From: Deltaproteobacteria bacterium
GTDB lineage: Bacteria; Desulfobacterota; JADFXK01
Direction: 5' to 3'
DNA: 25,857 nucleotides
Assembly: GCA_015233285.1 (NCBI GenBank)
Contig: JADFYA010000007.1
Coordinates: 3,072 to 28,928 of the forward strand
Positions 4,720-25,857 of the stretch are shown here, one piece after another. Below the pieces are notes generated by a model that saw nothing but the letters and a program-made list of their open reading frames with translations, had not been told where the DNA came from and made no database searches. The stretch's first letter is position 1; every line of letters starts with the position of its first letter. The position numbers and the translations under genes are program-made.

Positions 4720-5938
4720 CTTCAGAAAAGCTCTGGAAGGAATTGTGGTCTGCGATTTTTCCTGGGTCGGGGCAGGACCGATTGCTACCAACGTGTTGGG
4801 CCAATGCGGCGCCGAGATAATTAAAATCGAGAGCGTAACGCGTCCCGACATACTGCGAAAGGGCGGGCCTTTTAAAGACGGCAACAGCCAGGGTCTGGAA
4901 CGAAGCGGCTATTTTGCCAACCGCAACCCCAACAAGAAATGCATCGCCCTCAACATGAGCATCCCCGAGGCGCGGGATGTGGCCGTGCGGCTGATTAAAA
5001 AGAGCGACATCATCATCAACAACTTCCGCGTCGGCCAGATGGAGAAGTGGAATCTTGGCTGGGAAGACGTCAAGGCCATCAACCCGCGCATCATTTACAT
5101 CACCATGAGTCTTCAGGGCCTCACCGGCCCGCATAAATCCTTCATGGGCTACGGCGTAAACCTGAATGCACTCTGCGGCCTGACTGAACAATCGGCATTC
5201 AAAGACGGTCGGCCCTTTGGTACCGGCACCAATTATACTGACCACGTCATGGTGCCTTGCCACACCCTCTTTGGCGTCATGGCGGCCCTCCTGCAGCGCG
5301 AGGTCACGGGAAAAGGCCAGACAGTGGCTATTTCACAGTTAGAATCAGCCATTGCCATGAAACCGAGCGATGTGATGACTTATGCGGCCAACGGGGATCT
5401 GCTGGGTCCCCTTGGCTACGGCGATGCTCATGCCGCACCGCATGGAGTTTACACAACCCTTGGATATCGCAAATGGATAGCCGTCTCGATATTCACCGAA
5501 AAGGATTGGCAGATTTTTAAAGACTTAATGGGCAATCCGGGGTGGGCCGACGATACCAAATTCTCATCTCTGTCGGCGCGCAAGGAAAACGAGGACGAAC
5601 TGAATGCCAATATAGATGCCTGGACGCGCGATCAGTATGCCGGCCGGCTGGCTGAAAGACTTAGAACCAATGGTATTCAGGCCGGAGAAGTAAATGACGC
5701 CCGTGCGGCCATCGAGGATCCTCACCTGATTGAACGGAATTTCTGGGCCTATCTTGACCATCCCGTGGTGGGCTCGAGTCTGTATAACAGGGCGCCGATC
5801 GTTTTTTCAAAGACGCCCGTTGAGATGAAAACCGCCGCTCCTCTTCTGGGCGAGCACACCCGTAAAGTTCTGACAGACATGCTCGGATACTCTGAGGAAG
5901 AAATCGATCAACTGGCTAAACAGAACGTATTAACCTAG
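4709..5938 (+). CDS. bbsF: BbsF-like class III CoA-transferase subunit
   Basis: This is a 409-residue family III CoA-transferase paralogue of the preceding gene. Where the preceding protein has the catalytic Asp (GSDL), this one reads [10 protein letters not shown], with Gly149 at the aligned place, so it may be the non-catalytic half of the heteromer. The start ATG has AAGGAGGG eight bases upstream and overlaps the bbsE end by 11 bases. Role inferred from family and operon: partner subunit in loading CoA onto the succinate adduct. An 89-base gap without a gene separates it from bbsG. Confidence 0.8.
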
Positions 5939-6027
5939 GAGGAGCCGCGCCAGGCGCGCGATGAATTTGCAGTAGGGTCGAAGGACAGGCCTTGCCCGCG
6001 ATGAAGTTTTATAGACAGGAGTAAAAA

Positions 6028-7263
6028 ATGGATTTCTCGATTTCCGAAGAATATAACATGCTGAAAGACTCCATGCGGGAGTTTGTTAAGAGAGAAATGC
6101 TGCCGCTGGAAAAAGCTTTTCTAGAACGTGACATCAGCCTTTGGACCGAGTCGGGCCCTCAGCTCTCTAAAGAAAGCGCGACGAGATTGCTCAGCGAAAG
6201 CAAAAAGCTCGGTTTCTGGGGGTTGGAGGTTGGAGAGGAATTTGGTGGGCAGGGATTGGGCATGCTGGCCAAGACCATAGTCCTCGAAGAAATGAGCAAA
6301 TCTTTCGTCGGGTTTTCACCCCACGGCTTTCTGCTCCCGCCGGATGCGCCCAATCTTTATTACCTGAACAGTTGCTGCACCGGCAACCAACGCGAGAAGT
6401 ATTTTAAACCATATTGCGATAACCTGCTGGATTCCGCCATGGCCTGTACCGAACCCGGCGCCGGGTCCGATGTCAGCGGGCTAAAGACCATAGCCGTGCG
6501 CAAGGGCGACAAATGGGTGATAAACGGGACCAAAACCTTTATCAGCAAATGCGATAAGGACAACGTCTTCTATATCCTCATTGCAGTGACAAACAAGGAC
6601 GCACCCTCTAAGGACCGCTTTACCGCCTTCCTTCTCGACCGGGATACGCCGGGGCTCAGAGTGGGCCGGGAGATCCCGGTCATCGGCGCCATGCCCACCT
6701 GGGATCTGATCCTCGAAGACGTGACCGTGGGTGATGATGCGATTCTAGGAGAAGAGGGCAAGGCTTTCATTCCGCTGCAAAATCGCTTTGGGGTGCGACG
6801 CATCGAACTGGCGTGCCGGTGCACGGGTATGGCCGAAAGACTCATCAAAATGATGATCGATCAAGCCAACACACGTGTAACCTTTGGAGAACCCTTGGCC
6901 AATCGTCAGACGGTGCAGAATTGGATCGCCGACTCCACGATTGAGCTAGAGACCGTCAGGTGGCTTCTCTATTACGCGTCTTGGAAATCGGACCAAGGAA
7001 TAGAGGATTTGCGCGTTGAAGGCTCCATGCTGAAGGTGGCGGCAACCGAAATGCTGACCAAAGTGGCGGACCGGGCCATTCAGCTTCATGGCGGCGTAGG
7101 GCTCTCAAAGGAGCTGGGGATTGAATACGTGGCCCGGATGGTTCGTATCTGGCGCATCCTGGAAGGTCCCTCCGAAATTCACAGATGGACACTGGGACGG
7201 ACCGTGCTGAAGCAGAAAAAACCCTATAATGGATTAGTGCTGGCAAAGGATGATGGCGATTAG
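6028..7263 (+). CDS. bbsG: BbsG-like acyl-CoA dehydrogenase ((R)-benzylsuccinyl-CoA dehydrogenase)
   Basis: This is a 411-residue FAD-dependent acyl-CoA dehydrogenase. The family signatures ACTEPGAGSD (FAD/substrate region) and LHGGVGL near the C-terminus are present. The catalytic base is the Glu of LEGPSEIH at about residue 379. In bbs pathways this enzyme oxidises benzylsuccinyl-CoA to phenylitaconyl-CoA and passes electrons to ETF. The etfBA genes about 1 kb downstream fit that. CAGGAG six bases before the ATG supports the start. It could act on a related substrate in a methylnaphthalene pathway. Confidence 0.83.
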   Translation: MDFSISEEYNMLKDSMREFVKREMLPLEKAFLERDISLWTESGPQLSKESATRLLSESKKLGFWGLEVGEEFGGQGLGMLAKTIVLEEMSKSFVGFSPHGFLLPPDAPNLYYLNSCCTGNQREKYFKPYCDNLLDSAMACTEPGAGSDVSGLKTIAVRKGDKWVINGTKTFISKCDKDNVFYILIAVTNKDAPSKDRFTAFLLDRDTPGLRVGREIPVIGAMPTWDLILEDVTVGDDAILGEEGKAFIPLQNRFGVRRIELACRCTGMAERLIKMMIDQANTRVTFGEPLANRQTVQNWIADSTIELETVRWLLYYASWKSDQGIEDLRVEGSMLKVAATEMLTKVADRAIQLHGGVGLSKELGIEYVARMVRIWRILEGPSEIHRWTLGRTVLKQKKPYNGLVLAKDDGD

Positions 7264-7293
7264 GACTGTATCGCTATAAAGGGAGTGACAAAA

Positions 7294-8064
7294 ATGCCCG
7301 TAGACTTTATAGTAGAAAACCACATTGCATTGATCACGCTCAATCGGCCGGAAGCCATGAATTCACTTGATCCCGAATCTGTTACGCAGCTCGCGCAGAA
7401 TTGGGCCGAAGTCCGAAACAATGATGATATCCGTGTCGCCGTGCTGACCGGTACGGGTGAAAAATCCTTTTGCACCGGGACGGACATGAAAAAAACGCCG
7501 CCGCCCGCTGAATGCATGGCCTCCATCTGGCTGAACGAAGGCCAACCGATCATTCCGCACATGAAGACGTGGAAACCTATCATTGCGGCCATTAACGGCT
7601 ACGCCATAGGAGGCGGCCTGGAAATGGCCCTGGCCTGTGATCTCAGGATCGCTGCCACTACCGCGAAGTTCGGCCTCACGGAGGTCAAGGTGGCCAGCCT
7701 GGCCGGCCTCAATGGAACCCAGTGTTTGCCGCGGGCCATCCCCCAGGCGGTAGCTATGAAAATGCTGCTGACAGGCGCCATGATCGACGCCCAGGAGGCC
7801 TTGCGGGTTGGATTGGTGAGCGACGTGGTCGAACCTGGGGAACTCCTCGATCTGGCTAAGCAATACGCCGGTATGATTGCAGCTAATGCTCCACTCAGCG
7901 TCAAGGCGGCCAAGCAGGCGGCTTTGATGGGGCTAGATATGCCCCTGGAACACGGCATAGCCTTCTCACATCTTCTGTGGGGTGCCCTGAGGGATACCGA
8001 GGACCGCAAAGAGGGATTCCAAGCTTTTAGTGAAAAGAGGACCCCACAGTGGAAAGGGCGTTAA
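7294..8064 (+). CDS. bbsH: BbsH-like enoyl-CoA hydratase (phenylitaconyl-CoA hydratase)
   Basis: This is a 256-residue crotonase-family protein. The oxyanion-hole segment NGYAIGGGLEMALACD and both catalytic glutamates (about E110 and E130, 20 residues apart as in classical hydratases) are present. The usual GGGGTQRL stretch reads GLNGTQCL, a deviation near the second Glu. Inferred reaction: hydration of the aryl-itaconyl-CoA made by BbsG. The ATG at 7294 is chosen because AGGGAG lies upstream; a GTG three codons earlier is less likely. It is the last bbs gene before a 268-base gap. Confidence 0.82.
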   Translation: MPVDFIVENHIALITLNRPEAMNSLDPESVTQLAQNWAEVRNNDDIRVAVLTGTGEKSFCTGTDMKKTPPPAECMASIWLNEGQPIIPHMKTWKPIIAAINGYAIGGGLEMALACDLRIAATTAKFGLTEVKVASLAGLNGTQCLPRAIPQAVAMKMLLTGAMIDAQEALRVGLVSDVVEPGELLDLAKQYAGMIAANAPLSVKAAKQAALMGLDMPLEHGIAFSHLLWGALRDTEDRKEGFQAFSEKRTPQWKGR

Positions 8065-8122
8065 GCCCCAACTAATAGTTTTCAGTTATCAGTTGACTGA
8101 ATCAATTGTTAGCTGTTGGTTC

Positions 8123-8281
8123 CAATCCATTTTTAGCAGGGTGCCGAAAAAGTGCCTGCGGACGAAAGGGCCTTTGCCTCCGGATAGAGGTCCGGGGCCG
8201 GTCCGGTAGGCGGCCCCACAATGTTTTTGCTCCAAAGGAGGAAGTTCAATCCTTTTTCAGCACTCTGTTAATATGGATAGT
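8123..8281. repeat. Short inverted-repeat (MITE-like) element between bbsH and etfB
   Basis: Two arms of about 30 bases, 8123-8153 and 8251-8281, are imperfect inverted copies. The core GCAGGGTGCCGAAAAAG on the left pairs with CTTTTTCAGCACTCTGTT on the right. The 97 bases between the arms are GC-rich and hold no convincing gene. This looks like a non-autonomous mobile element or a large hairpin between the two halves of the operon. The rest of the 8065-8332 gap shows only AT-rich sequence and the etfB ribosome site. Confidence 0.5.
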
Positions 8282-8332
8282 GACCAGTTCGAGCCGTCTG
8301 AAAACACAAAACCGGAAAAGGAGGGTACCTAG

Positions 8333-9088
8333 ATGCATATCGCGGTGCTCGCAAAAGTAGTGCCTGACTATGAAGTACCCGCGAGAGATTTTGAGCTGGA
8401 CGGAAACCGCGCTCACTCCCGCTACACCAGGATGATCGGTCTATATGACGAAAACGCGATAGAAACCGGCATCCAGTTGAAAGAGAAGTATGGAGCCAAG
8501 CTCAGCATCGTTTCTTACGGCCAGAGCGATGATGTCCCAATACTCAGAAAAGCCGTCGCCATGGGCGGAGATACTCTTAATCTCATATTAGGAGATTCAG
8601 ACGACCCCTATGTCATAGCGGCCAATCTGAAAATGGCGCTGGAGCAGATAAAAGATGTAGACCTGGTTTTAGCGGGCCAGCAATCCGCCGACCTGGACCG
8701 AGGAATTGTACATGGCATCCTGGCTGAGCTGCTCGGCTACACCTTTCTGGCCCAAATTAGCAAGATCGAGTTCAACCAAGATCGCTGGACTGTCCAACAG
8801 AATCACGAAAACGGCAGCCGCATGCTCCAATTCAATAGAAAAGCCGTTCTTTCCATAACCAGCAGCCATGAAAACGTCCCTCGCATTCCTGCCGTGCGAG
8901 CCATTATGGCCGCCAAGAAGAAGCCGGTGGAAAAGCTGCAGGGAATAGACGCCGTCCCGATGAAAGCTGAAGAGATCAAGGTGGAGATTCCGAAACTCGA
9001 ATCAATCTGTGAATTCCTGCCATTGGATGATCTGCAGCAAACCGCCAAAATCATGTTGGCCAGACTGAGGGAGGAGCGCTATCTATGA
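8333..9088 (+). CDS. etfB: Electron transfer flavoprotein beta subunit
   Basis: This is a 251-residue EtfB, near normal length. It shows the ETF-beta pattern of an N-terminal KVVPDYEVP segment, NAIETGIQLKEKYG, and the AGQQSADLDRG region that contacts the nucleotide. Together with EtfA it takes electrons from acyl-CoA dehydrogenases such as the BbsG-like protein upstream. AAGGAGGG precedes the ATG. Its stop overlaps the etfA start in ATGA. The gene is probably in the bbs transcript, although the inverted-repeat element lies between them. Confidence 0.9.
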   Translation: MHIAVLAKVVPDYEVPARDFELDGNRAHSRYTRMIGLYDENAIETGIQLKEKYGAKLSIVSYGQSDDVPILRKAVAMGGDTLNLILGDSDDPYVIAANLKMALEQIKDVDLVLAGQQSADLDRGIVHGILAELLGYTFLAQISKIEFNQDRWTVQQNHENGSRMLQFNRKAVLSITSSHENVPRIPAVRAIMAAKKKPVEKLQGIDAVPMKAEEIKVEIPKLESICEFLPLDDLQQTAKIMLARLREERYL

Positions 9089-9972
9089 AAACATTGATCA
9101 TAGAAAAGATTGAACCAAAAAGAATCGGTGAACTGGTGACCGTGGGGAGGATTCTGGGCGAAACACCCGATCTGCTCGCCATCGGACAAGGGGAAATTCC
9201 AGGCACATTCAATAGAGCCTTCCAGTGCCGGGAAACCGTCGCGGCCAACCTGGTAGATAGCGTGACGGAGGTGATCCAGAAGAATGATTACCAGTTGATA
9301 CTGCTCAGCGCGACAACTCTGGGGTCGGAAATCGCCGGGAGGCTGGGCGCCCGGCTGAGAGCACCCGTTCTTTCCGAAGTGATCGAAGTCCACCCGGATA
9401 TGACTGTCAAACGGCCCGTTTACGGAGGCAAGGCCGTCGCAGAATATAAAATACCAGAGGGCCATGTGGTCCTCACCGTTCGCAGGAAATATTTTGAACC
9501 AGCACCACTGGAGGGAACGTGTGTGGCCGAGGCCTTCAATATTGAGAACCCCGCGATCACCCTCCTTTCGGAAGATCAGATACAAACTCAGGGCGTCCGT
9601 CTTGAAGATGCAGAAATCATTGTCTCGGGCGGCCGAGGTATGGGCGACAGCGGAAATTTCGAAATTCTTCGAGAAATGGCCGGGCTGCTCAATGGCGCCG
9701 TCGGCGCCTCGCGCGGCGCAGTGGATGAAGGATGGGTCCCGCAAACCATGCAGGTTGGCCAGACCGGCAATATTGTGGCCCCGACTGTTTATTTTGCCGT
9801 CGGCATATCGGGCGCCAGCCAGCACCTCGCCGGCATAGCCAACGCCAAGTGCGTAGTCGCCGTAAATAAGGACGAGGAGGCCAATATATTCAAACGAGCC
9901 CGTTTTGGCGTCGTATCTGATTATAGAAACTTTATTCCTGCCTTGATCCAGGCATTACGAGAGGAACAGTAG
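9085..9972 (+). CDS. etfA: Electron transfer flavoprotein alpha subunit
   Basis: This is a 295-residue EtfA. The C-terminal FAD-binding half is clear: SGGRGMGD, then [13 protein letters not shown] and [12 protein letters not shown]. The N-terminal half is somewhat shorter than in many EtfA proteins, but nothing is missing from the FAD site. It pairs with EtfB (4-base overlap) to carry electrons from BbsG to the membrane Fe-S oxidoreductase whose gene starts three bases after this stop. Confidence 0.9.
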
Positions 9973-9975
9973 CCA

Positions 9976-11940
9976 ATGAGGGTCCCCTATTGGAATATCA
10001 GTTATGGTGTTTTGATGGACGTTCTGGCCGTTCCGGTGTTTGCCATCTTTTTTTCCGGCCTCTACAGTCATTACCGAAAGATCCGCAAAGGAACAGAACG
10101 GATAAAACGCATCTCGGATAAGGCGTACGTCAAAAACAGTCCGGTTTTTCTAAAGGAGGTTTTCACCAAGGGTATACTTGGCACCAGAATTTACCGGAAG
10201 CTCTTCACCGGATTGGCTCACGGGCTGGTTTTTGTGGGTATGGCGGTTCTGACCCTCGGCACCATACTCGTCTTTGCCAACGTAACCATAAAGTTGCCTG
10301 TTTTCAGCGGGTCCTTTAATCACTGGTTTATGAGCTTCGGCCTGGATCTCGCGGGGATATCGGCGCTGGCCGGCCTTTTATTCTTTTTCCTCCGCAGGCT
10401 CTTTCCTCCTGATCGGTTGGTTACCCCAAAGGAACGGACCGGCTTTTTTCCGATGATCGGCCTTCTTATCCTGATAATTGCCACCGGCTTTTTGCTGGAA
10501 TCATTGCGTATTCGCTCTTCCGGCCCGGATCCGGGTTCTTTCGTGGGCAATTTCCTCGCCGGCTTTATTCCGGCCAATAGCCAGGTTTTGTCTTACCATC
10601 GTTATGTGTGGTGGTTCCATGGTTTCATAGCGCTTGGTTTTATCGCTTATATCCCATACTCGCCAATGGTTCACATGGTTTTGGCCCCCGTCAACACCGC
10701 ACTGGCCGACCCCAGGCCCGGACCCAAAATGGGCGTTATCGATTTCTCCGGCTTCGATGACGAAGAGGGAGAGGACCTGCCTCCTATGGGCGTGGCCAAG
10801 CTGGGGGATTTCACCCGAAAGCGACTGCTTGATTTCGACACTTGTTTATGGTGCGGCAGATGTCACGAAGTCTGTCCGGCGGCCCAGACTCAACGGCCGC
10901 TTTCTCCTAAAATGGTTGTGGCCACCCTGGCCGAATTTCTCGCCGCTAACCGTTTCACGGACGAACCGGCGGATGTTATAGGTATCGACGCAATTTTTAA
11001 TTGCACGACTTGCGCCGCCTGCATGGAGGCATGTCCGATCAGCATCAACCAACCAAAGGCGATTATGCAACTCAGGCAAAACCTGGTCATGGAAAGGTCT
11101 GAATTGCCCGATCTGATGAGCAAAGCCTACAACAGCTTGGAACAGCGGCGACACCCGTTTTTCGGTACGGGCGCAGGTCCTAAGGATTGGCAAAAGGGAC
11201 TCGATGTTCCGATTTTTGCTGCCGGTAAAACCGAATACCTGCTTTGGGTCGGCTGCGCGGCCACTTATGACGAACGGGCGCAGAAAATCGCCGGCGCAAT
11301 GGTAAAAATTCTTTCTGCCGCCACGGTCTCTTTCGGCATTTTGGCCAAACCCCGTTGTACCGGTGACCCGGCCAAGCAAATGGGAAACGAGTTTCTGTTT
11401 ACCGAGATCGCCCGAGAAAATATAGAGGAATTTGATTCTCTGGGGATCAAGAAAATAATAACGCTCTGTCCGCATTGTTTTAACAGCTTCACTCGCCATT
11501 ACCCGGAGTTGGGCGGCCATTATGAGGTTATTCCCCATTCCGTCCTTATAAGCGATCTTATCGCCGCCAACCGGCTGACGTTGAACAAAAACAGTGAATC
11601 ATTCTGCTTCCATGATCCCTGTTATTTGGCCAGGCGCAACCACATTGAACAACCGCCCCGCCGCGCTCTGGAGGCTATGGGAACGCTTATGGAAATGCCA
11701 AGAGCCAAAAGAGAGAGTTTTTGCTGCGGTGGAGGGGGGGGCAACTACTGGAGCGAATCCACGGGGATTCGGATAAACCAGGTTCGAGCCAGGGAAGCGC
11801 TTGACACCGGCTCAAACCTGATAGCCACCGCCTGCCCATTTTGTCTGTTGATGCTGACCGATGGGTTAAAGAAGTTCACTGAAGACAAGAAGGTTTTCGA
11901 TATCGCGGAACTGGTCGAAGCAAGGTTGAAGCTGGGCTGA
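9976..11940 (+). CDS. Membrane Fe-S oxidoreductase, probable EtfAB:quinone oxidoreductase
   Basis: This is a 654-residue protein. The N-terminal 240 residues hold about five hydrophobic helices of the NarI-like haem-b type. Two 4Fe-4S motifs follow, CLWCGRCHEVCP (from C290) and CTTCAACMEACP (from about C343). Then come two CCG/HdrD-like domains, one with RCTGDP and LCPHC, the other ending in FCCGGGGGNYW near residue 583. This architecture matches the Fe-S oxidoreductases encoded next to etfBA in anaerobic aromatic and fatty-acid degraders, which are thought to pass ETF electrons to menaquinone. Spacing to etfA is three bases. The direct electron acceptor is inferred. Confidence 0.85.
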   Translation: MRVPYWNISYGVLMDVLAVPVFAIFFSGLYSHYRKIRKGTERIKRISDKAYVKNSPVFLKEVFTKGILGTRIYRKLFTGLAHGLVFVGMAVLTLGTILVFANVTIKLPVFSGSFNHWFMSFGLDLAGISALAGLLFFFLRRLFPPDRLVTPKERTGFFPMIGLLILIIATGFLLESLRIRSSGPDPGSFVGNFLAGFIPANSQVLSYHRYVWWFHGFIALGFIAYIPYSPMVHMVLAPVNTALADPRPGPKMGVIDFSGFDDEEGEDLPPMGVAKLGDFTRKRLLDFDTCLWCGRCHEVCPAAQTQRPLSPKMVVATLAEFLAANRFTDEPADVIGIDAIFNCTTCAACMEACPISINQPKAIMQLRQNLVMERSELPDLMSKAYNSLEQRRHPFFGTGAGPKDWQKGLDVPIFAAGKTEYLLWVGCAATYDERAQKIAGAMVKILSAATVSFGILAKPRCTGDPAKQMGNEFLFTEIARENIEEFDSLGIKKIITLCPHCFNSFTRHYPELGGHYEVIPHSVLISDLIAANRLTLNKNSESFCFHDPCYLARRNHIEQPPRRALEAMGTLMEMPRAKRESFCCGGGGGNYWSESTGIRINQVRAREALDTGSNLIATACPFCLLMLTDGLKKFTEDKKVFDIAELVEARLKLG

Positions 11941-11959
11941 TTGGGGAGTTTTTAAGAAT

Positions 11960-12097
11960 GTGGCGAAAAATTGGCATCGATCTTTACGGGTGTCGAGGGC
12001 ATGGGAATTGACCATACTGGAGGTGTACGGGGCCGGGTATTTGACGACTCCCAGGGTCGATATTATTGACCAGGCCGGAGATATAATTAAACGCTGA
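11960..12097 (+). CDS. Possible 45-residue peptide after the Fe-S oxidoreductase
   Basis: A GTG-started frame runs 45 codons and ends in a TGA at 12095-12097. GGGGAG lies upstream and the frame begins 19 bases after the oxidoreductase stop. The sequence is mixed and soluble-looking, with no domain I recognise. It may be a small operon gene, a remnant of a longer gene, or chance. The rest of the convergent gap 11941-12209 shows no supported gene. Confidence 0.2.
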   Translation: MAKNWHRSLRVSRAWELTILEVYGAGYLTTPRVDIIDQAGDIIKR

Positions 12098-13732: not shown

Positions 13733-14113
13733 CTACTCCTTTAAATATGTTGGGATCAGAATTAGTCTCTTCTTGGTTTGTTTCATCTCTGCCGGTGTGT
13801 CCTTCCCCTTATTCATTCTGGCCACATTAATCCCCACTCCGGCCATGCCGCCGCCAGTGAAAGCCTTCATGGCCAAGGCGTGACCCAATATGGCCTTCAA
13901 ACCGAGCAATGGAAATGCTGCCAAACCGGCCACAGTGATCATCGCCCCAACCCCGGCTCCGATAACCGCCGTTCTGCCCAGATGGCCATAGGAATCGGCC
14001 ATCCGGCATGATTCCTTTTCGCCCCTGGCCGTCTTTTTCAAATGCAGTTTACAGAAGTACTGGCTATAACCACGATAGTAGCATTTTTCACACATGGACT
14101 TTTTCTTACTCAC
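13733..14113 (-). CDS. Small Cys-motif plus Gly-rich membrane protein
   Basis: This is a 126-residue protein. The N-terminus has a metal-site pattern CEKC...YFCKLH...SC. It is followed by two Gly/Ala-rich hydrophobic stretches (about residues 47-70 and 78-97) and a basic tail. A GTG at 14113 with GGAGG five bases upstream is the best start. Small Gly-rich membrane proteins are common in magnetosome clusters, but I cannot match this one to a named family. It is separated from the magnetosome-like genes by the 377-bp element. Real gene likely; function unknown. Confidence 0.6.
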   Translation of the reverse strand: MSKKKSMCEKCYYRGYSQYFCKLHLKKTARGEKESCRMADSYGHLGRTAVIGAGVGAMITVAGLAAFPLLGLKAILGHALAMKAFTGGGMAGVGINVARMNKGKDTPAEMKQTKKRLILIPTYLKE

Positions 14114-14318: not shown

Positions 14319-14695
14319 CCAATGTCATTGACTTAAGGGTAGGGTCATCGGATCCTATTCTAATAAATGGTTAATTCCGATGAAGCCCTGAAAGGGCGCT
14401 CTAGGTTAGCCCAGGGCAACGCCCTGGGTAGGGGTGGCGACTATATAAAAACCATGTAATAGTCACATAAAACCGCCGGCAATCCCGTACTTCAGCCGTA
14501 GCCGGACATTCCATTCAGAGGAAATGATTTTGGGGGCCAGCCGACCTCCTGACCATCCCGCTGACACGTAACATGCCGTATTTCCCAGGGCACTGCCCTG
14601 GGCTAACCTAGAGCGCCCCGTTGGGGCTTAATCGGAATGGTCTATTTTAAAAAAAATTAGCTCGTTTGTCCGCACCCTTAAGTCAATGACATTGG
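14319..14695 (+). mobile_element. 377-bp non-coding MITE-like element, copy 1
   Basis: The element has terminal inverted repeats beginning CCAATGTCATTGACTTAAG at both ends. Subterminal palindromes are built on GCGCTCTAGGTTAGCCCAGG and its complement. It is flanked by an exact 8-base direct repeat, GTGTATCC (14311-14318 and 14696-14703), which I read as a target-site duplication. It has no open frame of note and must be moved in trans. A nearly identical copy lies in inverse orientation at 22292-22668. Insertion sits downstream of the polyferredoxin stop and disrupts no gene. Confidence 0.85.
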
Positions 14696-14764
14696 GTGTA
14701 TCCCTCCAAATTCGACGCAAGGCATGAATTATCGCCTCATAGGACGCAGTTTGCCTCAGGTAAC

Positions 14765-15595
14765 TCATTTTGTTTCCTGGGACGAAAACGGAGTGACCAG
14801 TGACACGTGACCGCACCGGGTACATTCCAGGCAACGGATACAATCTTTCGAGTCGAAATCAAGAGATACGTTTAGATCCATGGGGCATTTGGTCTCACAC
14901 ATTTTGCAGCCATCGCAATGGGGTTCAACTTCCAGGCGAACAATACTAACTCTATTGAATAATGACAGAATCGCTCCCATGGGGCAAGCTACCGTGCAAA
15001 ACGGTCTCTTGCTAACCACGAACCAGATCAGGAAACCGGCAAGAATAATCAATCCCACAACAAATATAATCCCTGGCCCTGAAGGTAAGACTGGTCGACC
15101 AGTGGCGGGATTTGTCGGATTCCACAAAGCCCAGGGGATGGCTGCGGTTAACGTCCCGGCCGGGCAAAGTTTAGAGAACCATACTTCCCCGGTCTGATAG
15201 GGGATAACGATTACAAGAAGAGCCAGCACAACATACTTTAGGTAACTCAAGAAGGACGCAATCCGGTACTTGGGGCTTCTGATTTTATACATCAAGTCCT
15301 GTAGGAATCCAAAGGGACAGATCCAGCCACAAGCCATTCTGCCTGTCGTTAGGCCAACCAATCCAATTAGCCCTAACAGATAAAAAGGGATGGACCGAAT
15401 CGCCATAAAATGTTGCAGCGTACCGATCGGACAAGAAAACAAAGCCCCTGGGCAGGCGTAACAGTTCAAAATAGGCACACAGACACCTTTGAGGGCATTC
15501 GTATTCACAGACTTGGTGAAAATTGTACCGAAAAAGCTATTGGTGAGAAAAGTGCTGGTTAACTGGGTTAGAGTTCTTAATTTTGACAGTTTCAT
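14765..15595 (-). CDS. NapH-like membrane polyferredoxin
   Basis: This is a 276-residue membrane protein. About four or five hydrophobic helices alternate with Cys motifs typical of the NapH/NosR/CcoG-type polyferredoxins: NCYACPG and SCPIG (C45, C48, C55), CGWICPFG (C89, C93), CPAG (C144), CTVACPMG (C200, C204). Two clusters follow, CDGCKMCETKCP (227-238) and CIRCLECTRCG (252-262); the second lacks the usual Pro. Such proteins pass electrons across the membrane to periplasmic haem proteins. ATG 15595 is chosen because the conserved fold starts there. The frame is open upstream to a TTG at 15739, but that stretch is made of the hairpin repeat. Confidence 0.8.
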   Translation of the reverse strand: MKLSKLRTLTQLTSTFLTNSFFGTIFTKSVNTNALKGVCVPILNCYACPGALFSCPIGTLQHFMAIRSIPFYLLGLIGLVGLTTGRMACGWICPFGFLQDLMYKIRSPKYRIASFLSYLKYVVLALLVIVIPYQTGEVWFSKLCPAGTLTAAIPWALWNPTNPATGRPVLPSGPGIIFVVGLIILAGFLIWFVVSKRPFCTVACPMGAILSLFNRVSIVRLEVEPHCDGCKMCETKCPMDLNVSLDFDSKDCIRCLECTRCGHVSLVTPFSSQETK

Positions 15596-15695
15596 TGGCC
15601 GCCTGATCCACTCGGTGATTTGTCGATGAAGGGATAGAAGGTACGTCTCTCCCTGAATCAGATCAGGTAAGATAAAAAGACAAGCCTTGATTGAC

Positions 15696-15823
15696 GTTGA
15701 GGTTTCCCGAACCTCATGCTCATGGTTGTGCTCACCCAAATCCGGCAGCTAAGTTGAGGTTCCCCGAACCTCCTGGGGGCATTCAACCAAATCCGGCAGC
15801 CGTGTTGAGGTTCCCCGAACCTC
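15696..15823 (-). repeat. Three hairpin repeats between two genes
   Basis: The 20-base unit GTTGAGGTTCCCCGAACCTC occurs at 15696-15715 (one mismatch), 15753-15772 and 15804-15823. Each forms a stem of seven base pairs with a three-base loop. The spacers share CCAAATCCGGCAGC and resemble the 3' end of the upstream zinc-ribbon gene, so the array looks like repeated duplication of that gene's end. No T-run follows the stems in the direction of transcription, so simple intrinsic termination is not obvious. RNA processing or uneven expression of the two flanking genes is possible. Confidence 0.7.
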
Positions 15824-15833
15824 TAGGAGGCAG

Positions 15834-16226
15834 TCAGCCCATTCCTGCTGCCGGGATCACTCCGGATGAAATACTGTTAAAAGCCATAGCCTGGCCGCAG
15901 ATCGGACAGCAAGCGTTTCCTTGGCCGTCAAAATTTGGCAGCCCCACTGCTCCGTGTTGGGGACAAAGATATTGCCCTGCACCGGAGATTGAGGATGGGG
16001 CCGGAGCAGGTTGGCCAATTGGCAGTGGTTGAGTCCTCGCCGTTGAAGCACCGGGGCTGCCGGCCGCGGCCAACATAAGACTCGAAGCCTGGTTCAGCTC
16101 CTTTTTCCAGGTTCCAAAACCAAATACGGCCCAGTAGATCACGGTCACAATAACGGCCACAGCCGAAATCAACCCGACCAGGGTACCGAATTTCTTGGAA
16201 TCAAGACCAAAATATTGTTGTAACAT
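15834..16226 (-). CDS. Single-span membrane protein with C-terminal zinc-ribbon-like motif
   Basis: This is a 130-residue protein. A hydrophobic helix spans about residues 15-36, then comes a Pro/Ala/Ser-rich linker, then a CPQHG...CPICG pair (about residues 86-112) that looks like a metal site of zinc-ribbon type. It lacks a CxxCH haem site. ATG 16226 has AAGGA upstream. It lies 49 bases after the magnetochrome gene and before the polyferredoxin gene, so it may belong to the same redox assembly. I do not recognise a named family; a membrane-anchored metal-binding role is inference. Confidence 0.62.
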   Translation of the reverse strand: MLQQYFGLDSKKFGTLVGLISAVAVIVTVIYWAVFGFGTWKKELNQASSLMLAAAGSPGASTARTQPLPIGQPAPAPSSISGAGQYLCPQHGAVGLPNFDGQGNACCPICGQAMAFNSISSGVIPAAGMG

Positions 16227-16275
16227 CAATGATTCCTTCGCGTTGTTTTCATGGTTTCCTGTTCTTTAATTACCG

Positions 16276-17814
16276 TTATAAGATCGTCTGACCTGGTTGT
16301 CTTTCGCTGCCTGGTAAAGGTGAGACCTGGGGCGAACTACTCTGGATATTGGTACTGTCCGTATTCATTGGAACAAGACGCCCGGCCAGGAACGCGGCTA
16401 AAACATCTTGAACGCTTCCAGTGACGCCGGAGAAAATGGTCACCTTAAGCATCTGAAGAGACTGTGAGGTATTGGCGCTAAAATTTCCAGCCACCACATT
16501 GCTTATCCCCAGGTCAACCAGATATTGTCCCGTTTTGACACCACGTCCAGCTACGGCCGCACTGGGATTGGTTACAGTGCGATAGGAATTTTGAGCTAAA
16601 TCGTAAATTAGGAAGTATGGGCTGGCTCCAAACTGTGGATAGACTTGATATCCGAGGCCGGGTCCGGCAGCAGCCACGGCCACCTTTCCGTAATTGATCT
16701 TAGCCACAGGCCGTACCTGGCCTTTAAGGGCATTAAGGACGTTCTGTTTCGTCTTGGGCACCCCCAATTGTTCAGCCTGCGTCTCGATCTGGTTCTGGGT
16801 CATGGGAACATTAACATTTGTTCTTGGATTATTGCGGCCTTGAAGAGCGTTAAGAACATCCTGCTGTGTCTTAGGCACTCCCAATTGTTCAGCCTGCGTC
16901 TCGATCTGATTTTGAGTCATTGGAATGTTAACATTTGTTCCCGGATTACTTCGGCCAACATTTGTTCGAGAATTATTTTGACTTTTAAGAGCATTAAGCA
17001 CGTCTTGCCGGGTCTTAGGCACCCCCAGTTGTTCAGCCATGGTCTCAATCTGATTTTGGGTCATCGGAACGTTGGCTGCGGCGGCAGTCAAATTTCCTGG
17101 TGCTCCCAGTGTGCTATTTGGTAACACAAGATAGGCGCTCATTCTTTTGTTGCCACGATAAAGGGTTGCTTTGACCTCGCTACCGGGATCAAGTCCTTTA
17201 AGCGCGTTCTCAAAAGTTGATTGGCTTTCGACCCGGGTTTTTCCCAATCGGATAATCTCATCGCCGGGTTTGAGACCAGCCTGGGCGGCCATAGAGTTGA
17301 TCGCCACCTCAAGAATCAATGCGCCATCTTCGTTAGGCAGGCCCAGTTGCTGCATGGATGCCCTATTAACAGTCTCCACCTTCAACCCCAGACTCTGGGC
17401 GTTAAACTGGTTAAGGGCCGCGGCCTGGGCTTGCGGCTGAGCCTGGAAACCACCGATGACTTTGTGACACAGGAGACAATTGCCCCAGTAGTCATGGGTC
17501 ATTTTGGCCTTGACGGCAATGGGCGGTCCCGTCATCACTTTGGACCCCGGCCCCCCAGCGTCAATTGTAACATGGCACTTGTTGCAGTTGCCCCAATAGG
17601 CATGGGGCATTTTAGCTTTGACCGCAATGGGTGGCCCGGAAGGCACGGCGGCAGTGGCCGCGGCTAAAGACAGGTTCGCCGCCCTATTTGGCTTTATCAC
17701 TAATTGCCACACGGCCCCGGCGATCAAGAGGACTACCAGGGCGATCAACCCGATCAAGGCCGGTTTGAATTCCTTCTTAGAAAATTTGTACTTTTCGATT
17801 TTCATGTTCATCAT
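16276..17814 (-). CDS. Magnetochrome-PDZ-NifX fusion protein (MamE/MamP-like)
   Basis: This is a 512-residue protein. A signal-anchor helix spans about 18-40. Two magnetochrome-type c-haem motifs follow, each with the PPIAVKAKM-x-H-x-YWGNC-xx-CH pattern (C77/C80/H81 and C113/C116/H117). A PDZ domain spans about 141-232, then three repeats of about 29 residues built on PMTQNQIET...QLGVPKT (249-277, 297-324, 336-364). A NifX/dinitrogenase-cofactor-type domain follows at about 372-482. Magnetochrome with PDZ is otherwise the signature of the magnetosome proteins MamE and MamP, which act in iron redox control in the organelle. No trypsin-like domain is present, unlike MamE. Haem-first order differs from MamP as I recall it. 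The NifX fusion is unusual. Confidence 0.85.
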   Translation of the reverse strand: MMNMKIEKYKFSKKEFKPALIGLIALVVLLIAGAVWQLVIKPNRAANLSLAAATAAVPSGPPIAVKAKMPHAYWGNCNKCHVTIDAGGPGSKVMTGPPIAVKAKMTHDYWGNCLLCHKVIGGFQAQPQAQAAALNQFNAQSLGLKVETVNRASMQQLGLPNEDGALILEVAINSMAAQAGLKPGDEIIRLGKTRVESQSTFENALKGLDPGSEVKATLYRGNKRMSAYLVLPNSTLGAPGNLTAAAANVPMTQNQIETMAEQLGVPKTRQDVLNALKSQNNSRTNVGRSNPGTNVNIPMTQNQIETQAEQLGVPKTQQDVLNALQGRNNPRTNVNVPMTQNQIETQAEQLGVPKTKQNVLNALKGQVRPVAKINYGKVAVAAAGPGLGYQVYPQFGASPYFLIYDLAQNSYRTVTNPSAAVAGRGVKTGQYLVDLGISNVVAGNFSANTSQSLQMLKVTIFSGVTGSVQDVLAAFLAGRLVPMNTDSTNIQSSSPQVSPLPGSERQPGQTIL

Positions 17815-17860
17815 CCAAGATGTTAAATGATCTGACTTCCGGTCAGGTCACCCTTTAACT

Positions 17861-18028
17861 CTATTTGGTTACCCTAATTCCGTGAGCAACAAACACCAGC
17901 CCGGCGAATATCAGGGCCGGAGGAAAAAATCCGTTAAAGAAGTCCAATACGGCATAATATTCGTCATAAAGACCATATATCCCTAAAGGAAGAAAGATTA
18001 ACGTCAAGGAATAATTAATTTTTTTCAA
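17861..18028 (-). CDS. Second MamI-like two-helix peptide, no ATG start
   Basis: This frame encodes 55 residues from a TTG at 18028, or about 61 from an ATT at 18046. It has two hydrophobic helices separated by GIYGLYDEYYAVLDFF. The pattern IFLPLGIYGLYDEYY aligns with FFIPLGSWGIFDNYF of the peptide at 19866-20051, so the two are paralogues. Both follow the two-helix layout of MamI, a magnetosome membrane protein. GAGGAAAGG upstream fits the ATT start better than the TTG. Its position between the trihaem cytochrome and the magnetochrome gene, with small gaps, supports a real gene. It has no ATG and would be missed by many gene finders. Confidence 0.55.
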   Translation of the reverse strand: MKKINYSLTLIFLPLGIYGLYDEYYAVLDFFNGFFPPALIFAGLVFVAHGIRVTK

Positions 18029-18071
18029 ATGGGTATCACTAATAATTACCTTTCCTCTCGGGTCGAGCTAT

Positions 18072-19076
18072 CTATTGAGGCGCTCCAGCGTCAATCCAGT
18101 CGACAATAATTCGGGCGTTCGGCCCGGCAAACCGATGCATAGGTCCACCACGCCGAACCAATAATTTTAGTAGCCCGTTGTCCACGTACATCTTTACGTT
18201 TTGATAAGTTGTCAGATTCCTGAAGGGGCCGGAATGGCATTGGAGGCAATCTTGGGTCAAGATGCCTTTGATGGTGTTACTGTAAGTTACCTGAGCGGCA
18301 ATGCCGGTTGAATTAGCTGCCGGTGGGCCGTTGCGGCCGAGTCCGAGGCCGGGGGATCCTGGTGGACAGGCTTGAAACTGAACCTGAGTAACGTCCGGCT
18401 TCTCCGGGGCGCCATTATCAACCCAGGTCAAGATGATATCGGCATCGTTTCCGGCAAACCGCCCCATGGGTCCTTGAACCATTGTGGCCAACATACCGCT
18501 GTCGGCGTACATTTTCAAGTTATCATAATCACCTAAGTATCTGACGGAGCCGAAATGACACTTCCCGCAATCAGCGGAGATGATGTTCTTGATAGTCGGT
18601 TCGTAATAAATTTTCTTACTCGCGACTAAGTTGAGGGATCTTCCCCCGGAAGTTCCGGTACCTGGTTGGCCTTGAGGGCTTCTTTGAAAACGAGCCTGAG
18701 TAACGCCTGGTTTCTCCGGCGCGCCATTATCAGCCCAGGTCAGGATGGTATTGGCATCGTTTCCGGCAAAGCGCCCCATGGGTCCTTGAACCATAGTGGC
18801 CAGCAATCCGCTGTCGGCGTACATTTTTAAGTTGTCATAATCACCCAAATATCTGACTGAGCCGAAATGGCACCTGCCACAATCGGCCGCAATAATATTC
18901 TTGATGGTTGGTTCATAATAAATACCTTGAGTCGCGACAAGTCTGGCCCGATTGCCCAGAACCTGGCCTGGTTGTTGGTTTGCCTGGAAGTTTTGGGGGG
19001 TTCCTGCCGTGACAAAACCCACAGTCACCGTGATGGTCACCAGTAATCCAAGGAACATCCGTCTAATTCTTTGCAT
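18072..19076 (-). CDS. Secreted trihaem c-type cytochrome with three repeats
   Basis: This is a 334-residue protein with a signal peptide (basic start, hydrophobic core to about residue 22, then TAGTPQ). Three repeated units of about 104 residues each carry one haem site: CGRCH (C66), CGKCH (C170) and CLQCH (C277). Each is followed by a GPM..RFAG segment and an ILTW-D-GAP end. The first two units are nearly identical, the third diverged. The fold resembles the cytochrome domains found in planctomycete and other multihaem proteins. It is inferred to be a periplasmic electron carrier for the neighbouring magnetochrome protein. It starts 26 bases after the MamA-like gene. Confidence 0.82.
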   Translation of the reverse strand: MQRIRRMFLGLLVTITVTVGFVTAGTPQNFQANQQPGQVLGNRARLVATQGIYYEPTIKNIIAADCGRCHFGSVRYLGDYDNLKMYADSGLLATMVQGPMGRFAGNDANTILTWADNGAPEKPGVTQARFQRSPQGQPGTGTSGGRSLNLVASKKIYYEPTIKNIISADCGKCHFGSVRYLGDYDNLKMYADSGMLATMVQGPMGRFAGNDADIILTWVDNGAPEKPDVTQVQFQACPPGSPGLGLGRNGPPAANSTGIAAQVTYSNTIKGILTQDCLQCHSGPFRNLTTYQNVKMYVDNGLLKLLVRRGGPMHRFAGPNARIIVDWIDAGAPQ

Positions 19077-19102
19077 CAGTCAACTCAAGTCGAGATTTGT
19101 TT

Positions 19103-19873
19103 TTAGTCTTCATCCTCTTGTTCCCGCTCCAATTCCATCACCTTGGAGAAACATTTAGCGGCTTCTTTATGATTTTCAATCCGTTCGTATAGGAATCCAA
19201 GATGTTGATAGAATTTAGCATTCCCTGTATCTAAAGAGACAGCCTGCTGGATGGAGGAAATGGCATCGGCAAGTCTTTCTTTGCGGTCATAGGCTATGCC
19301 CAGCAGGTAATGGAATTCCGCTTTTAGGGGACTCATCCTGACTAGATTCTCCAAGCTCTCTATGGCTTGATTGTAGTCTTTGATTTTCAGAAGAAGAAGG
19401 CTCTTTCGGTATAAGGCGGTTTTGTGCTGAGGGTTAAGCTTAAGGACCTTGTTAAACGTCCCGATGGCGCTTTTTGCATTGCCGGTGGAGGCCAGGGCTA
19501 AACCCAGTTGAAAAAAGGCATCCGGATTATTTGGTTCGAGACGGGTCCACTCTTTGAGATAATCCAACGATTTTTTTATCAGGCCCTTGCCGGCGTAATA
19601 ATTACTTATGTTGCGGTATATTTTAGCCTTGTCCTGGGGTGCCAGTCCAACCAGGTTACCGTATACATCCAAGAGCCTACTGAAAAGGCGTCCACAAACC
19701 AGGAGCATACTATGATAATAGACCATGGCGGACACTTCCGACGATTCGTTTTTGACATCATCAACCCGCATATCCCTGCTGTTATCTTTAATTTTTTTTG
19801 TTCTCTTCTGCCGTTCTGCTTCGTCAAAGTCATCGCCTCGAATGCCCGAAGTCTTCATCTCACCTTCACTCAT
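19103..19873 (-). CDS. mamA: MamA-like TPR protein
   Basis: This is a 256-residue protein with about five TPR units over the last 170 residues (for example AFFQLGLALASTGNAKSAI and FHYLLGIAYDRKERLADAI). A helical segment SEVSAMVYYHSMLLV precedes them. From memory, the N-terminal helix, repeat number and the gap-free run of repeats line up with MamA of magnetotactic bacteria, the TPR scaffold on the outer magnetosome surface. The N-terminal 50 residues are charged and extra. ATG 19873 has GAGGAGG upstream and overlaps the end of the MamI-like gene by eight bases. A generic TPR protein cannot be excluded, but the neighbours favour MamA. Confidence 0.65.
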   Translation of the reverse strand: MSEGEMKTSGIRGDDFDEAERQKRTKKIKDNSRDMRVDDVKNESSEVSAMVYYHSMLLVCGRLFSRLLDVYGNLVGLAPQDKAKIYRNISNYYAGKGLIKKSLDYLKEWTRLEPNNPDAFFQLGLALASTGNAKSAIGTFNKVLKLNPQHKTALYRKSLLLLKIKDYNQAIESLENLVRMSPLKAEFHYLLGIAYDRKERLADAISSIQQAVSLDTGNAKFYQHLGFLYERIENHKEAAKCFSKVMELEREQEDED

Positions 19874-20051
19874 CTGATAGATCCTCCTCTTTTCTGGGCG
19901 ATACGAATCCGGCAATCACAGCTAACATCCAGATTAACATTAAAAAAATAGGCATAATTTCTTTTAGAAGGTCAACTATGTAAAAATAATTATCAAAAAT
20001 GCCCCAACTGCCTAATGGGATAAAAAACAATCCAATTATTATGTGTAACAT
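19866..20051 (-). CDS. MamI-like two-helix membrane peptide
   Basis: This is a 61-residue peptide with two hydrophobic helices (about 3-20 and 31-49) and an acidic tail EEDLSDE. The pattern IIGLFFIPLGSWGI, a short polar turn with D and Y, then VDLLKEIMP and an Ala/Ile helix ending in AG, matches the layout of MamI, a small protein needed for magnetosome membrane formation in Magnetospirillum. Identity at this length is weak, so the call leans on layout and on the overlapping MamA-like gene. The stop lies inside the mamA start region. A related peptide is encoded at 17861-18028. Confidence 0.55.
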   Translation of the reverse strand: MLHIIIGLFFIPLGSWGIFDNYFYIVDLLKEIMPIFLMLIWMLAVIAGFVSPRKEEDLSDE

Positions 20052-21328: not shown

Positions 21329-21718
21329 TTATGAATGACAGTGACCCTGGGCGCCGGAGCAGGTATGCTCCTGGCCGAATGCAGGCAACTGCCCTGCAAT
21401 AAAGCTCTCCAAAGCTTGTTTGACGGTGCTTTGAACTAAATTTAGGTGGACCCGAACGCCGACAGATTGGAGTCCCTTAAGAGGACGCATTCCCATACCG
21501 GCCGCAATTAAGGCCTGCACCTGGTTGTCGGCCAGGTAATTTACCGGGGCCATACAACCGCCTTCAGCGTGTGGCATCCCATTAACAATCGAAACATCGT
21601 TTACTTGTTCGTTATCGATCGTGGCGATGGTATAGCAATCACAGTGTCCGAAATGGGCGCTCATCGTGGCGTCCAACCCGCCGGGAAAATCTGATGGAAC
21701 AGCGACTTTGATAGGCAT
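21329..21718 (-). CDS. NifX/NifB-type dinitrogenase cofactor family protein
   Basis: This is a 129-residue stand-alone NifX-type domain (dinitrogenase iron-molybdenum cofactor family). The start PIKVAVPSD, the SAHFGHCDCYTI stretch and LIAAGMGMRPLKGLQ follow the family. The end carries an extra Cys/His tail (HTCSGAQGHCHS). ATG 21718 has AGGAGG nine bases upstream. Such proteins bind Fe-S or metal-sulphur clusters; here no nitrogenase genes are near, so a nitrogenase role is unlikely. Confidence 0.85.
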   Translation of the reverse strand: MPIKVAVPSDFPGGLDATMSAHFGHCDCYTIATIDNEQVNDVSIVNGMPHAEGGCMAPVNYLADNQVQALIAAGMGMRPLKGLQSVGVRVHLNLVQSTVKQALESFIAGQLPAFGQEHTCSGAQGHCHS

Positions 21719-21881
21719 GCTTTTAAATCCTCCTGGTTTAAACACGGCTTCTTTTAATAGCGCGACAGCCGGAATGAAAACTAACGAGCGAATATGCCGG
21801 TAGTATATTAAAGACAGTGCCGGCTTGATCTTGGTTTCCTGCTGGTTTAATTTGCGGCGTGGAATGACTGGTCTTGTTTTA

Positions 21882-22291: not shown

Positions 22292-22668
22292 GTAATGTCA
22301 TTGACTTAAGGGTGCGGACAAACGAGCTAATTTTTTTTAAAATAGACCATTCCGATTAAGCCCCAACGGGGCGCTCTAGGTTAGCCCAGGGCAGTGCCCT
22401 GGGAAATACGGCATGTTACGTGTCAGCGGGATGGTCAGGAGGTCGGCCGGCCCCCAAAATCATTTCCTCTGAATGGAATGTCCGGCTACGGCTGAAGTAC
22501 GGGATTGCCGGCGGTTTTATGTGACTATTACATGGTTTTTATATAGTCGCCACCCCTACCCAGGGCGTTGCCCTGGGCTAACCTAGAGCGCCCTTTCAGG
22601 GCTTCATCGGAATTAACCATTTATTAGAATAGGATCCGATGACCCTACCCTTAAGTCAATGACATTGG
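22292..22668 (-). mobile_element. 377-bp non-coding MITE-like element, copy 2 (inverted)
   Basis: This is a near-identical reverse complement of the copy at 14319-14695, with the same terminal repeat and internal palindromes. The left end reads GTAATGTC instead of CCAATGTC. I see no convincing 8-base duplication of the flanks (GTGCAG before, GGTGAAAG after), unlike copy 1. It sits between a NifX-like gene (stop at 22677) and the FmdB-type gene (start 22204), splitting what may have been one operon. Confidence 0.85.
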
Positions 22669-22676
22669 GGTGAAAG

Positions 22677-23042
22677 TTATCTGAGGCAGCATTCCCCGCC
22701 CGTTCGATGGCAAGTCCCGCCGCAAACGAGAGTATGTGGAATTATCTTGTCAGTCAAAAACACGGCCATAACTTCATCTAGCTCGCCACTGACAAATGAC
22801 ACCATCTTAAGCCCGTTTGAAGTCAAGAACCTGGCCAGCCGGTTTTCGATCCCGCCACAAATTAGCAGATCGAGGTCCATTGTCAGGATCTGGCTTGTTC
22901 TGTCTGTAACCGGCATATCGCTCCATGAATAGTCATGCCGGGATATGACTGCCCTGTCCTCAATCGTAAACACGGCTAAATTGGGAGCATAGTCAAACCA
23001 GGGCGAAACGCGTTCATGAAACAGGGTCACGGCCACTCTCAC
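22677..23042 (-). CDS. NifX-type dinitrogenase cofactor family protein
   Basis: This is a 121-residue stand-alone NifX-type domain with RVAVTLFHERVSPWFDYAPNLAVFTIED at its start and a C-terminal Cys motif CGGTCHRTGGECC. The start is a GTG with GGAGGAGG upstream. It is the first gene after a sigma54 promoter at 23102-23117 and after the activator gene, so it is probably the first gene of the regulated transcript. Its biochemical role is unknown; the family binds Fe-S or Mo-Fe-S clusters. Confidence 0.82.
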   Translation of the reverse strand: MRVAVTLFHERVSPWFDYAPNLAVFTIEDRAVISRHDYSWSDMPVTDRTSQILTMDLDLLICGGIENRLARFLTSNGLKMVSFVSGELDEVMAVFLTDKIIPHTLVCGGTCHRTGGECCLR

Positions 23043-25583: not shown

Positions 25584-25687
25584 CAATGTCATTGACTTAA
25601 GCCGACGAACAATCGTGCCAACTTTTTTAAAATAGACCATTCCGAATAAGCCCCAACGGGGCGCTCTAGGTTAGCCCAGGGCAACGC
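25584..25687 (+). mobile_element. Truncated third copy of the 377-bp element
   Basis: From GCAATGTCATTGACTTAAG the sequence follows the left end of copy 2 through AAAATAGACCATTCCG and the GCGCTCTAGGTTAGCCCAGG palindrome. It stops abruptly at 25687 where another element begins. The subterminal stretch is more diverged than between copies 1 and 2, so this copy is older. Confidence 0.7.
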
Positions 25688-25857
25688 CCCAATGTTGTTG
25701 AATTAAGGGTGCGACGTTAAGATTTCTCGCTTCGCTCGAAATGACAGGGAAGTGGACCACCTGGAATGACGCCATAAATTTGTCATTCCGAACGAATGTG
25801 AGGAATCTTATCACATCCGAAGATGGTTAAGCCGCAGCTTAATTCAACAGCATTGGG
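25688..25857 (+). mobile_element. Nested 170-bp MITE-like element with related ends
   Basis: The left end CCCAATGTTGTTGAATTAAG and the right end CTTAATTCAACAGCATTGGG are inverted repeats. They resemble the ends of the 377-bp element (CCAATGTCATTGACTTAAG), so both probably use the same kind of transposase. Inside is a large hairpin of the GTCATTCCGAACGAA type (arms about 25718-25746 and 25781-25810). It seems inserted into copy 3 and ends exactly at the window edge. Confidence 0.6.

Follow-up and report, generated by a model that had tools for sequence, protein, structure and literature searches.

The stretch of DNA analysed here (the window; 25,857 nt) carries at 14765..20051 a block of seven consecutive reading frames, all on the minus strand, which an earlier sequence-only reading had described as a magnetosome-like redox module; the frames confirm that layout. 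The host is known here from the window alone, and genome-level comparisons refer to related metagenome-assembled genomes (MAGs), among them nDJH6bin12 (G001), nDJH13bin5 (G002) and nDJH8bin5 (G005). Loci of related genomes bear L numbers; scanning contigs with 23 aligned FmpB sequences identified 20 loci among 24 matched stretches. Published work is drawn on as far as extracts of the cited papers reach.

The first gene of the block (mamI-like, 19866..20051) encodes a 61-aa peptide, and its frame is intact in the window. It scores 61.2 bits with the MamI model NF040963 (curated cut-off of 80 not reached) and is 62-65% identical to MamI of the fuller, main clusters of G001, G002 and G005. The main-cluster MamI proteins of G001, G002, G003 and G005 likewise lie under this cut-off (77-78 bits), while that of Desulfamplus magnetovallimortis BW-1 exceeds it. 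The end of the mamI-like gene is overlapped by mamA (19103..19873, minus strand, 19873 being the better start), whose 256-aa product was correctly recognised as a MamA-like TPR protein: it scores 216.2 bits with NF040959 (cut-off 200) and matches the solved MamA structure 4xi0 (E=1.8e-49). Two MamA copies over the cut-off are present in each of G001, G205, G006 and G212 (4 of 20 genomes).

The third gene (18072..19076, minus strand) encodes a 334-aa protein with three CxxCH motifs, at residues 66, 170 and 277, as expected of the trihaem cytochrome originally proposed; its homologues in L001 (G001) and L005 (G005) have two. It was named mad1 from its place after mamA and the three CxxCH motifs described for Desulfovibrio magneticus RS-1, and the names mad2, fmpA and mad6 were given from position and the RS-1 descriptions (PMC4287615), in all cases not from RS-1 sequences. 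The cytochrome is homologous to that encoded between mamA and mamQ in the fuller clusters; mamQ is missing in the window. The next frame (17861..18040, minus strand) yields 47.1 bits with the MamI model, and its product matches residues 49-111 of a 111-residue L005 protein, i.e. the second half only. In relatives this two-part MamI-like gene lies between mad1 and mamQ, which we take to be probably the mamL position. Comparison with L005 indicates that the upstream half is gone and that its ribosome-binding leader is retained; the frame has no ATG or GTG start, TTG (18028) or ATT being the only candidates. MamI is the sole curated family matched by both small peptides, each below the cut-off, and both are therefore called MamI-like, the second being half of a two-part protein.

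A short junction (17815..17860, minus strand) follows at the site occupied by mamQ, mad2 and mamB in relatives, and the bases preceding fmpB look, by comparison with L005, like the end of mamB. The product of fmpB (16276..17814, minus strand) has an apparent N-terminal membrane segment (read from the sequence), two magnetochrome domains, a PDZ domain, a repeat region and a C-terminal NifX (Nitro_FeMo-Co) domain (PF18509, PF13180, PF02579). The magnetochrome motifs and PDZ domain had been seen in the sequence-only reading, which overlooked NifX. The architecture MCR1-MCR2-PDZ-NifX with both CxxCH motifs (CNKCH, CLLCH) is the one that defines FmpB of RS-1, alias MamP* (PMC3971196, PMC4287615), and the magnetochrome part matches the MamP structure 4jj0 (E=6e-6). 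Homologues of FmpB number 171 among 7997 scored candidates (120 of them listed). Some match to the window protein was obtained in 191 of 198 G001-related genomes, of which only G001, G002 and G005 gave matches stronger than 6.6e-18; among the matches listed, those of the other genomes reflect the shared NifX or PDZ domain.

The second junction (16227..16275, minus strand), the site of fmpA, mamO and a 289-aa gene in relatives, leads to a gene (15834..16226, minus strand) for a membrane protein whose tail resembles a zinc ribbon, judging from the sequence, and for which no Pfam or NCBIfam family was found above cut-off. This Zn-ribbon gene directly precedes the mad6-like gene in L004, L010, L040 and L046, and in L003 its homologue sits upstream of mamI. 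Three short palindromes, GGTTCGGG(G/A)AACC, lie before mad6 (15701..15821, minus strand); L001 has two, and exact copies were found in none of 10 other loci searched (two from one contig). The mad6-like gene (14765..15595, minus strand) encodes a NapH-like membrane iron-sulphur protein, in keeping with RS-1 mad6, a NapH domain protein (PMC4287615). Its score with TIGR02163 is 58.5 bits (cut-off 213), so the proposed polyferredoxin is retained as NapH-like below the family threshold, with its start moved to 15595. The product is 81.5% identical to the L046 protein at the same place and 62-72% identical to those of 10 related loci. An eighth cluster gene (13733..14113, minus strand; 126 aa, no Pfam match) has counterparts adjoining mamM in L045 and L046 (70-71% identity) and further ones in L001, L004, L012, L013, L018 and L019.

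The sequence-only reading had exposed its magnetosome assignment to profile searches, and these placed the TPR, small and haem proteins in magnetosome families. The magnetochrome and MamI profiles matched none of 14 control genomes, nor did MamA at E 1e-40, so that chance is no issue. Judged by sequence, the eight-gene set consists of genuine magnetosome genes.

A composite order of the fuller clusters was pieced together from several loci, which individually cover parts and vary: mamI, mamA, mad1, the two-part MamI-like gene, mamQ, mad2, mamB, fmpB, fmpA, mamO, the 289-aa gene, the Zn-ribbon gene, mad6, two small genes, mamM, a 604-aa gene (in L004), the 126-aa gene and feoB. For L004 the listing gives no mamO in the interval from fmpA to the 289-aa gene. 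The window lacks the blocks (i) mamQ-mad2-mamB, (ii) fmpA-mamO and (iii) mamM, and the remaining order is the standard one of Desulfobacterota. When the 21 cluster proteins of L005 and L004 were compared with the window at E 1e-3, eight had a counterpart and 13 had none. MamQ, the Mad2-position protein, MamB, MamO and MamM gave no match in this search, and FmpA matched only the PDZ/NifX part of FmpB, common to both; three MamK-like queries from relatives had no match in the window at E 1. The initial observation that MamB, MamM, MamQ, MamO and MamK are absent here was therefore accurate, and the genes that mark a complete cluster (mamB, mamQ, mamM, mamE/O) have no match in the window. The missing gene called mamO here is a trypsin-TauE gene, a possible counterpart of RS-1 tauE.

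One of the two interpretations originally offered, that the block is the margin of a newly arranged cluster, is ruled out by the standard order with internal gaps and by the non-magnetosome genes that flank the block on both sides. Two other candidates were also discarded. A simple relocation of the core genes is not needed, as mamO and the start of mamQ sit in ordinary main-cluster pieces in G001, and an allelic variant of the main cluster is ruled out by a protein identity to that cluster of only about 60-82%.

Nearly the same block (about 92% DNA identity to the window) was found in G001 at L001, where NifX, Zn-ribbon and sigma-54 regulator genes lie upstream, as in the window. The window encodes two stand-alone NifX-domain proteins (21329-21745 and 22677-23042) near the block whose FmpB also has a NifX domain. 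The fmpB/Zn-ribbon junction is the same in L001 and the window at about 89% DNA identity, and this gap thus predates their split. G001 also holds pieces of a main cluster. Contig C530 carries, besides two response-regulator-type genes, mamI, mamA, mad1 and the two-part MamI-like gene, and breaks off in mamQ after its first 34 codons; on contig C151 lie mamO, the 289-aa gene and the Zn-ribbon gene, together with incomplete copies of fmpA and mad6. Their magnetosome proteins with L005 counterparts (n=7) are 86-100% identical to these (the regulator genes 71-76%), as against 60-71% for the genes of the L001 block (mamI 52%). As each contig is cut within a gene, mamB, the greater part of mamQ and the main fmpB either fall into the assembly gap or are missing.

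Within the block, a stretch of ~1 kb (window 18300-17260; L001 about 5713-6760) is 99-100% identical between the two copies, whereas the rest is mostly 87-97% identical, and L001 has an N gap (6219-6240) inside it. This points to recombination or a mixed assembly, and Mad1 and the half gene are for that reason unreliable guides to selection. The shared junction between the half gene (mamI2) and fmpB, considered as evidence of common descent, is weakened by the same identity and N gap. In G002 the main cluster occurs in two overlapping stretches that are 89-90% identical (L043 on contig C72, 6789-8823; L044 on C148, 1-1824), and either the bin combines two strains or two main clusters exist, which renders the purity of these MAGs doubtful. 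Fifteen other genomes that have an FmpB locus yielded no second FmpB-like gene; three of them show single weak magnetochrome matches elsewhere.

The flanks point to the origin of the window. Positions 781-11990 (11 kb) are 93% identical to a contig of G005, whose fuller cluster is made up of L005 together with another contig that bears mamM, feoB and a MamK-like gene. The NifX/sigma-54 locus upstream of the block recurs in G002 at 82-86% DNA identity, so that both flanks derive from one lineage. In G002 this locus lacks the magnetosome block on contig C593, and also on C237 as far as the short match reaches; G002 and G005 have one magnetochrome gene each. The nDJH names are those used in PMC7602337, a paper on 168 genomes containing magnetosome gene clusters, and from this naming and the main clusters present we infer that the nDJH MAGs are magnetotactic. 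The host lineage, known here from genes alone, is presumably magnetotactic as well.

The second interpretation offered at the outset, a redox organelle or system in a non-magnetotactic bacterium, is not favoured, given the 93% identity of the flank to a fuller-cluster MAG and the pieces of a fuller cluster in the MAG with the sister block. In its present form it would hold that the strain has no main cluster and that the module serves another redox job at the envelope. The retained genes are largely redox carriers, mamB, mamQ, mamM, mamO and mamK are lacking in the window, and the sole magnetochrome gene found in G001 is the fmpB of L001, in a set of bins that may mix strains. However, main-cluster pieces are present in G001 and fuller clusters in G005 and G002, and the main fmpB of G001 would fall in the gap between contig ends that cut genes. 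We consider this explanation improbable.

The block (below, the islet) was placed by midpoint-rooted trees of FmpB (21 rows; one of 22, L049, left out for sharing domains only), MamA (all 19 rows) and Mad1 (17 rows; two of 19, the fragments L002 and L007, left out). No main copy of fmpB was found in G001, and none is in the FmpB tree. Within this lineage, islet and main copies group in a single clade (100/100 for FmpB, 100/99 for Mad1, 91/98 for MamA), in which the two kinds are split at 100/100. The islet therefore split off earlier than the divergence of the sampled MAGs, either through duplication or from a sister outside the sample. MamA of the window shares 42% identity with its counterpart in the FmpB-bearing BW-1 cluster (L010) and 28% with the one in the other BW-1 region (L048), which identifies the islet as of the FmpB type.

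An import of the fragment from another, related magnetotactic lineage, instead of a duplication within this one, would be compatible with either view of function. Protein divergence of about 30-40% for most genes, a synonymous divergence to the main clusters that is high or saturated, the G002 NifX locus without the block and the multi-copy repeats around the block in the window are consistent with such a transfer. In the trees, on the other hand, the islet is closest, among sampled loci, to the main clusters of the same lineage, which fits an old duplication, though a donor from an unsampled sister is possible. Horizontal origin is thus a tenable but doubtful alternative.

As to the repeats themselves, inverted copies of a short element lie at 14320-14698 and 22295-22668 (99.7% identical over 373 bases). 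The element has imperfect inverted ends of about 109 bases and many further matches among those listed in G001, G002 and G005, as has another repeat at 25585-25857. It is absent from L001 at both places, at the first along with about 1.5 kb that include mad6, so that the missing 14320 copy there says little. A mobile unit bounded by the two copies is unsupported, as L001 has the block without the 22295 copy.

Selection was examined from the ratio of nonsynonymous to synonymous divergence (dN/dS) between the window and L001, which by the NG86 method is 0.20 for MamA, 0.17 for FmpB, 0.16 for the Zn-ribbon gene, 0.21 for the 126-aa gene, 0.30 for Mad1 and 0.69 for MamI. The corresponding main-cluster values are 0.07-0.09 for MamA, 0.14 for Mad1 and 0-0.46 for MamI (three pairs each), and 0.12 for FmpB, 0.09 for the Zn-ribbon gene (its rows take in a few codons beyond the stop) and 0.225 for the 126-aa gene (one pair each). 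Binomial tests of four islet genes, with the stretch of FmpB identical to L001 left out, showed nonsynonymous changes to be rarer than neutral (MamA p 4e-8, FmpB 6e-15, Zn-ribbon gene 1e-5, 126-aa gene 1e-4). Purifying selection on these four islet genes is real, yet for several genes of the islet it is looser than in the main clusters.

From the gene identities, the standard order with gaps, the second example beside main-cluster pieces in G001 and the selection on four genes, we conclude, with a probability of roughly 0.7, that the block is a diverged and incomplete second copy of a Desulfobacterota-type magnetosome gene cluster (mad/fmp, RS-1-like magnetite), i.e. a chromosomal islet in a lineage that normally has a fuller cluster as well. 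The main cluster that an islet presupposes in the same genome is represented by contig pieces in the fragmented G001, a bin of doubtful purity.

Several observations weigh against this conclusion. In L001 mamI is broken by an internal stop, mad6 is absent and a split NifX gene lies nearby; in the window the half gene has no normal start. By NG86, dN/dS in the islet is about twice that of the main clusters for MamA, Mad1 and the Zn-ribbon gene and 1.5 times for FmpB, the 126-aa gene not being raised; YN00 gives higher values, with islet/main ratios of 1.9-2.8 for MamA, FmpB, the Zn-ribbon gene and Mad1 and about 1 for the 126-aa gene. The fragmented G001 yielded neither mamB nor mamM nor a main-cluster fmpB; no cation diffusion facilitator transporter in it was closer than 29% to MamB of L005, and no MamQ match was obtained at profile level. 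The bins may mix strains, and the two clusters of G001 may come from different cells. Finally, mad2 and fmpA are also missing from the window, although RS-1 mutants of both keep some crystals (PMC4287615), so retention does not simply follow the rule that accessory genes are kept and essential ones lost.

Some of these points agree with the main rival, in which the block is the remainder of a redundant second cluster that is no longer useful; it differs from the islet interpretation on function and overlaps with it on origin. Whole blocks are gone, the half gene is startless, L001 has a broken mamI and no mad6, dN/dS is raised, the block is absent beside the G002 NifX locus, and neither G002 nor G005 has a second magnetochrome gene. 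On the other side stand the strong under-representation of nonsynonymous changes in the four genes tested, at a synonymous divergence of about 0.2, the intact frames and haem motifs of the window, and an islet/main split older than the divergence of the sampled MAGs, a long time for useless genes. Pure decay is therefore a serious possibility that falls short of even odds, and decay may run alongside use.

The islet is, as its sequence features indicate, probably a redox accessory set, partly decaying. If so, the main cluster, through MamB, MamM, MamQ and MamO, would build and load the vesicle, and the islet products would, at about even odds, go to the same organelles. Electrons might flow from quinol in the membrane via Mad6 to the lumenal haem proteins Mad1 and FmpB, which would govern the Fe(II)/Fe(III) balance; MamA and MamI would contribute scaffold and membrane components. 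In this way the islet would add dose, or a variant, of the redox and crystal-maturation step while losing parts. It is unlikely, though conceivable, that a true division of labour has arisen, in which the islet is a specialised, conserved electron-transfer set, no longer engaged in vesicle building, that would provide a second iron-redox setting for the organelle or the envelope, for instance for another crystal form or for iron handling under different redox conditions.

Apart from the islet, the window carries at 196-8064 an operon whose gene order resembles what we take to be the order bbsABCDEFGH. BbsA (266.8 bits, cut-off 250) and BbsB (771.8 bits, cut-off 750) both exceed the curated thresholds and are followed by two short-chain dehydrogenases/reductases, two CaiB-type CoA-transferases, an acyl-CoA dehydrogenase and an enoyl-CoA hydratase. 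The set suggests that relatives of MAGs with magnetosome clusters carry out anaerobic toluene (benzylsuccinate) beta-oxidation. A PFL-family glycyl-radical enzyme of the benzylsuccinate synthase type was found in none of three related MAGs; 3 of 14 control genomes match. In L062 (contig C233 of G005), the sequence from 11211, past the bbs operon, contains an apparent phage-type integrase (read from the sequence) and other genes, not the islet region.

Among known systems, the islet is most like the mad/fmp clusters of RS-1 (as extracted) and BW-1, with which it shares mamI, mamA, mad1, fmpB and mad6 in the same relative order; it differs from them in lacking mamQ, mad2, mamB, fmpA, mamO and mamM and in its halved MamI/MamL gene. 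In RS-1, MamB, MamQ and TauE are absolutely required, and mad1, mad6 and fmpB mutants retain some crystals (PMC4287615, PMC12748827), as do mad2 and fmpA mutants (PMC4287615). As a partial second copy left by duplication and loss, the islet resembles the mamAB-2 remnants and duplicated mamAB operons of Alphaproteobacteria and other Pseudomonadota, whose retained paralogues, in Alphaproteobacteria, are biased to the essential genes mamB, E, L, M, O and Q (PMC6819731, PMC9840458). In contrast to those duplicates, the window lacks mamB, mamM, mamO and mamQ and keeps redox genes, with possibly half of mamL. The islet of Magnetospirillum magneticum AMB-1 likewise consists of magnetosome genes outside the main cluster, but has another gene set (limJ, a MamK), belongs to another phylum and is thought to have been acquired by transfer (PMC6819731, PMC8788322).

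The window block also shares with silent clusters the presence of magnetosome genes without shown use. Such clusters in a non-magnetotactic phototroph (ISME J 2023) are reportedly complete, whereas the block is partial and occurs in kin of MAGs with fuller clusters. Duplication in some magnetotactic Deltaproteobacteria is mentioned in the extracts of PMC6819731; a redox-retaining partial copy in Desulfobacterota was not met in the literature listings, and the supplementary nDJH gene maps may already show the block. Partial duplicates are thus known, and the retention of redox genes without mamB and mamQ appears unusual, in contrast to the view, in the published extracts, of retained magnetosome duplicates as mostly essential genes. 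In deep-branching magnetosomes the roles of the redox proteins are difficult to disentangle from vesicle building by genetic means, and a natural block without mamB, mamQ, mamM and mamO but with redox genes maintained by selection offers a test of whether these form an independent functional unit.

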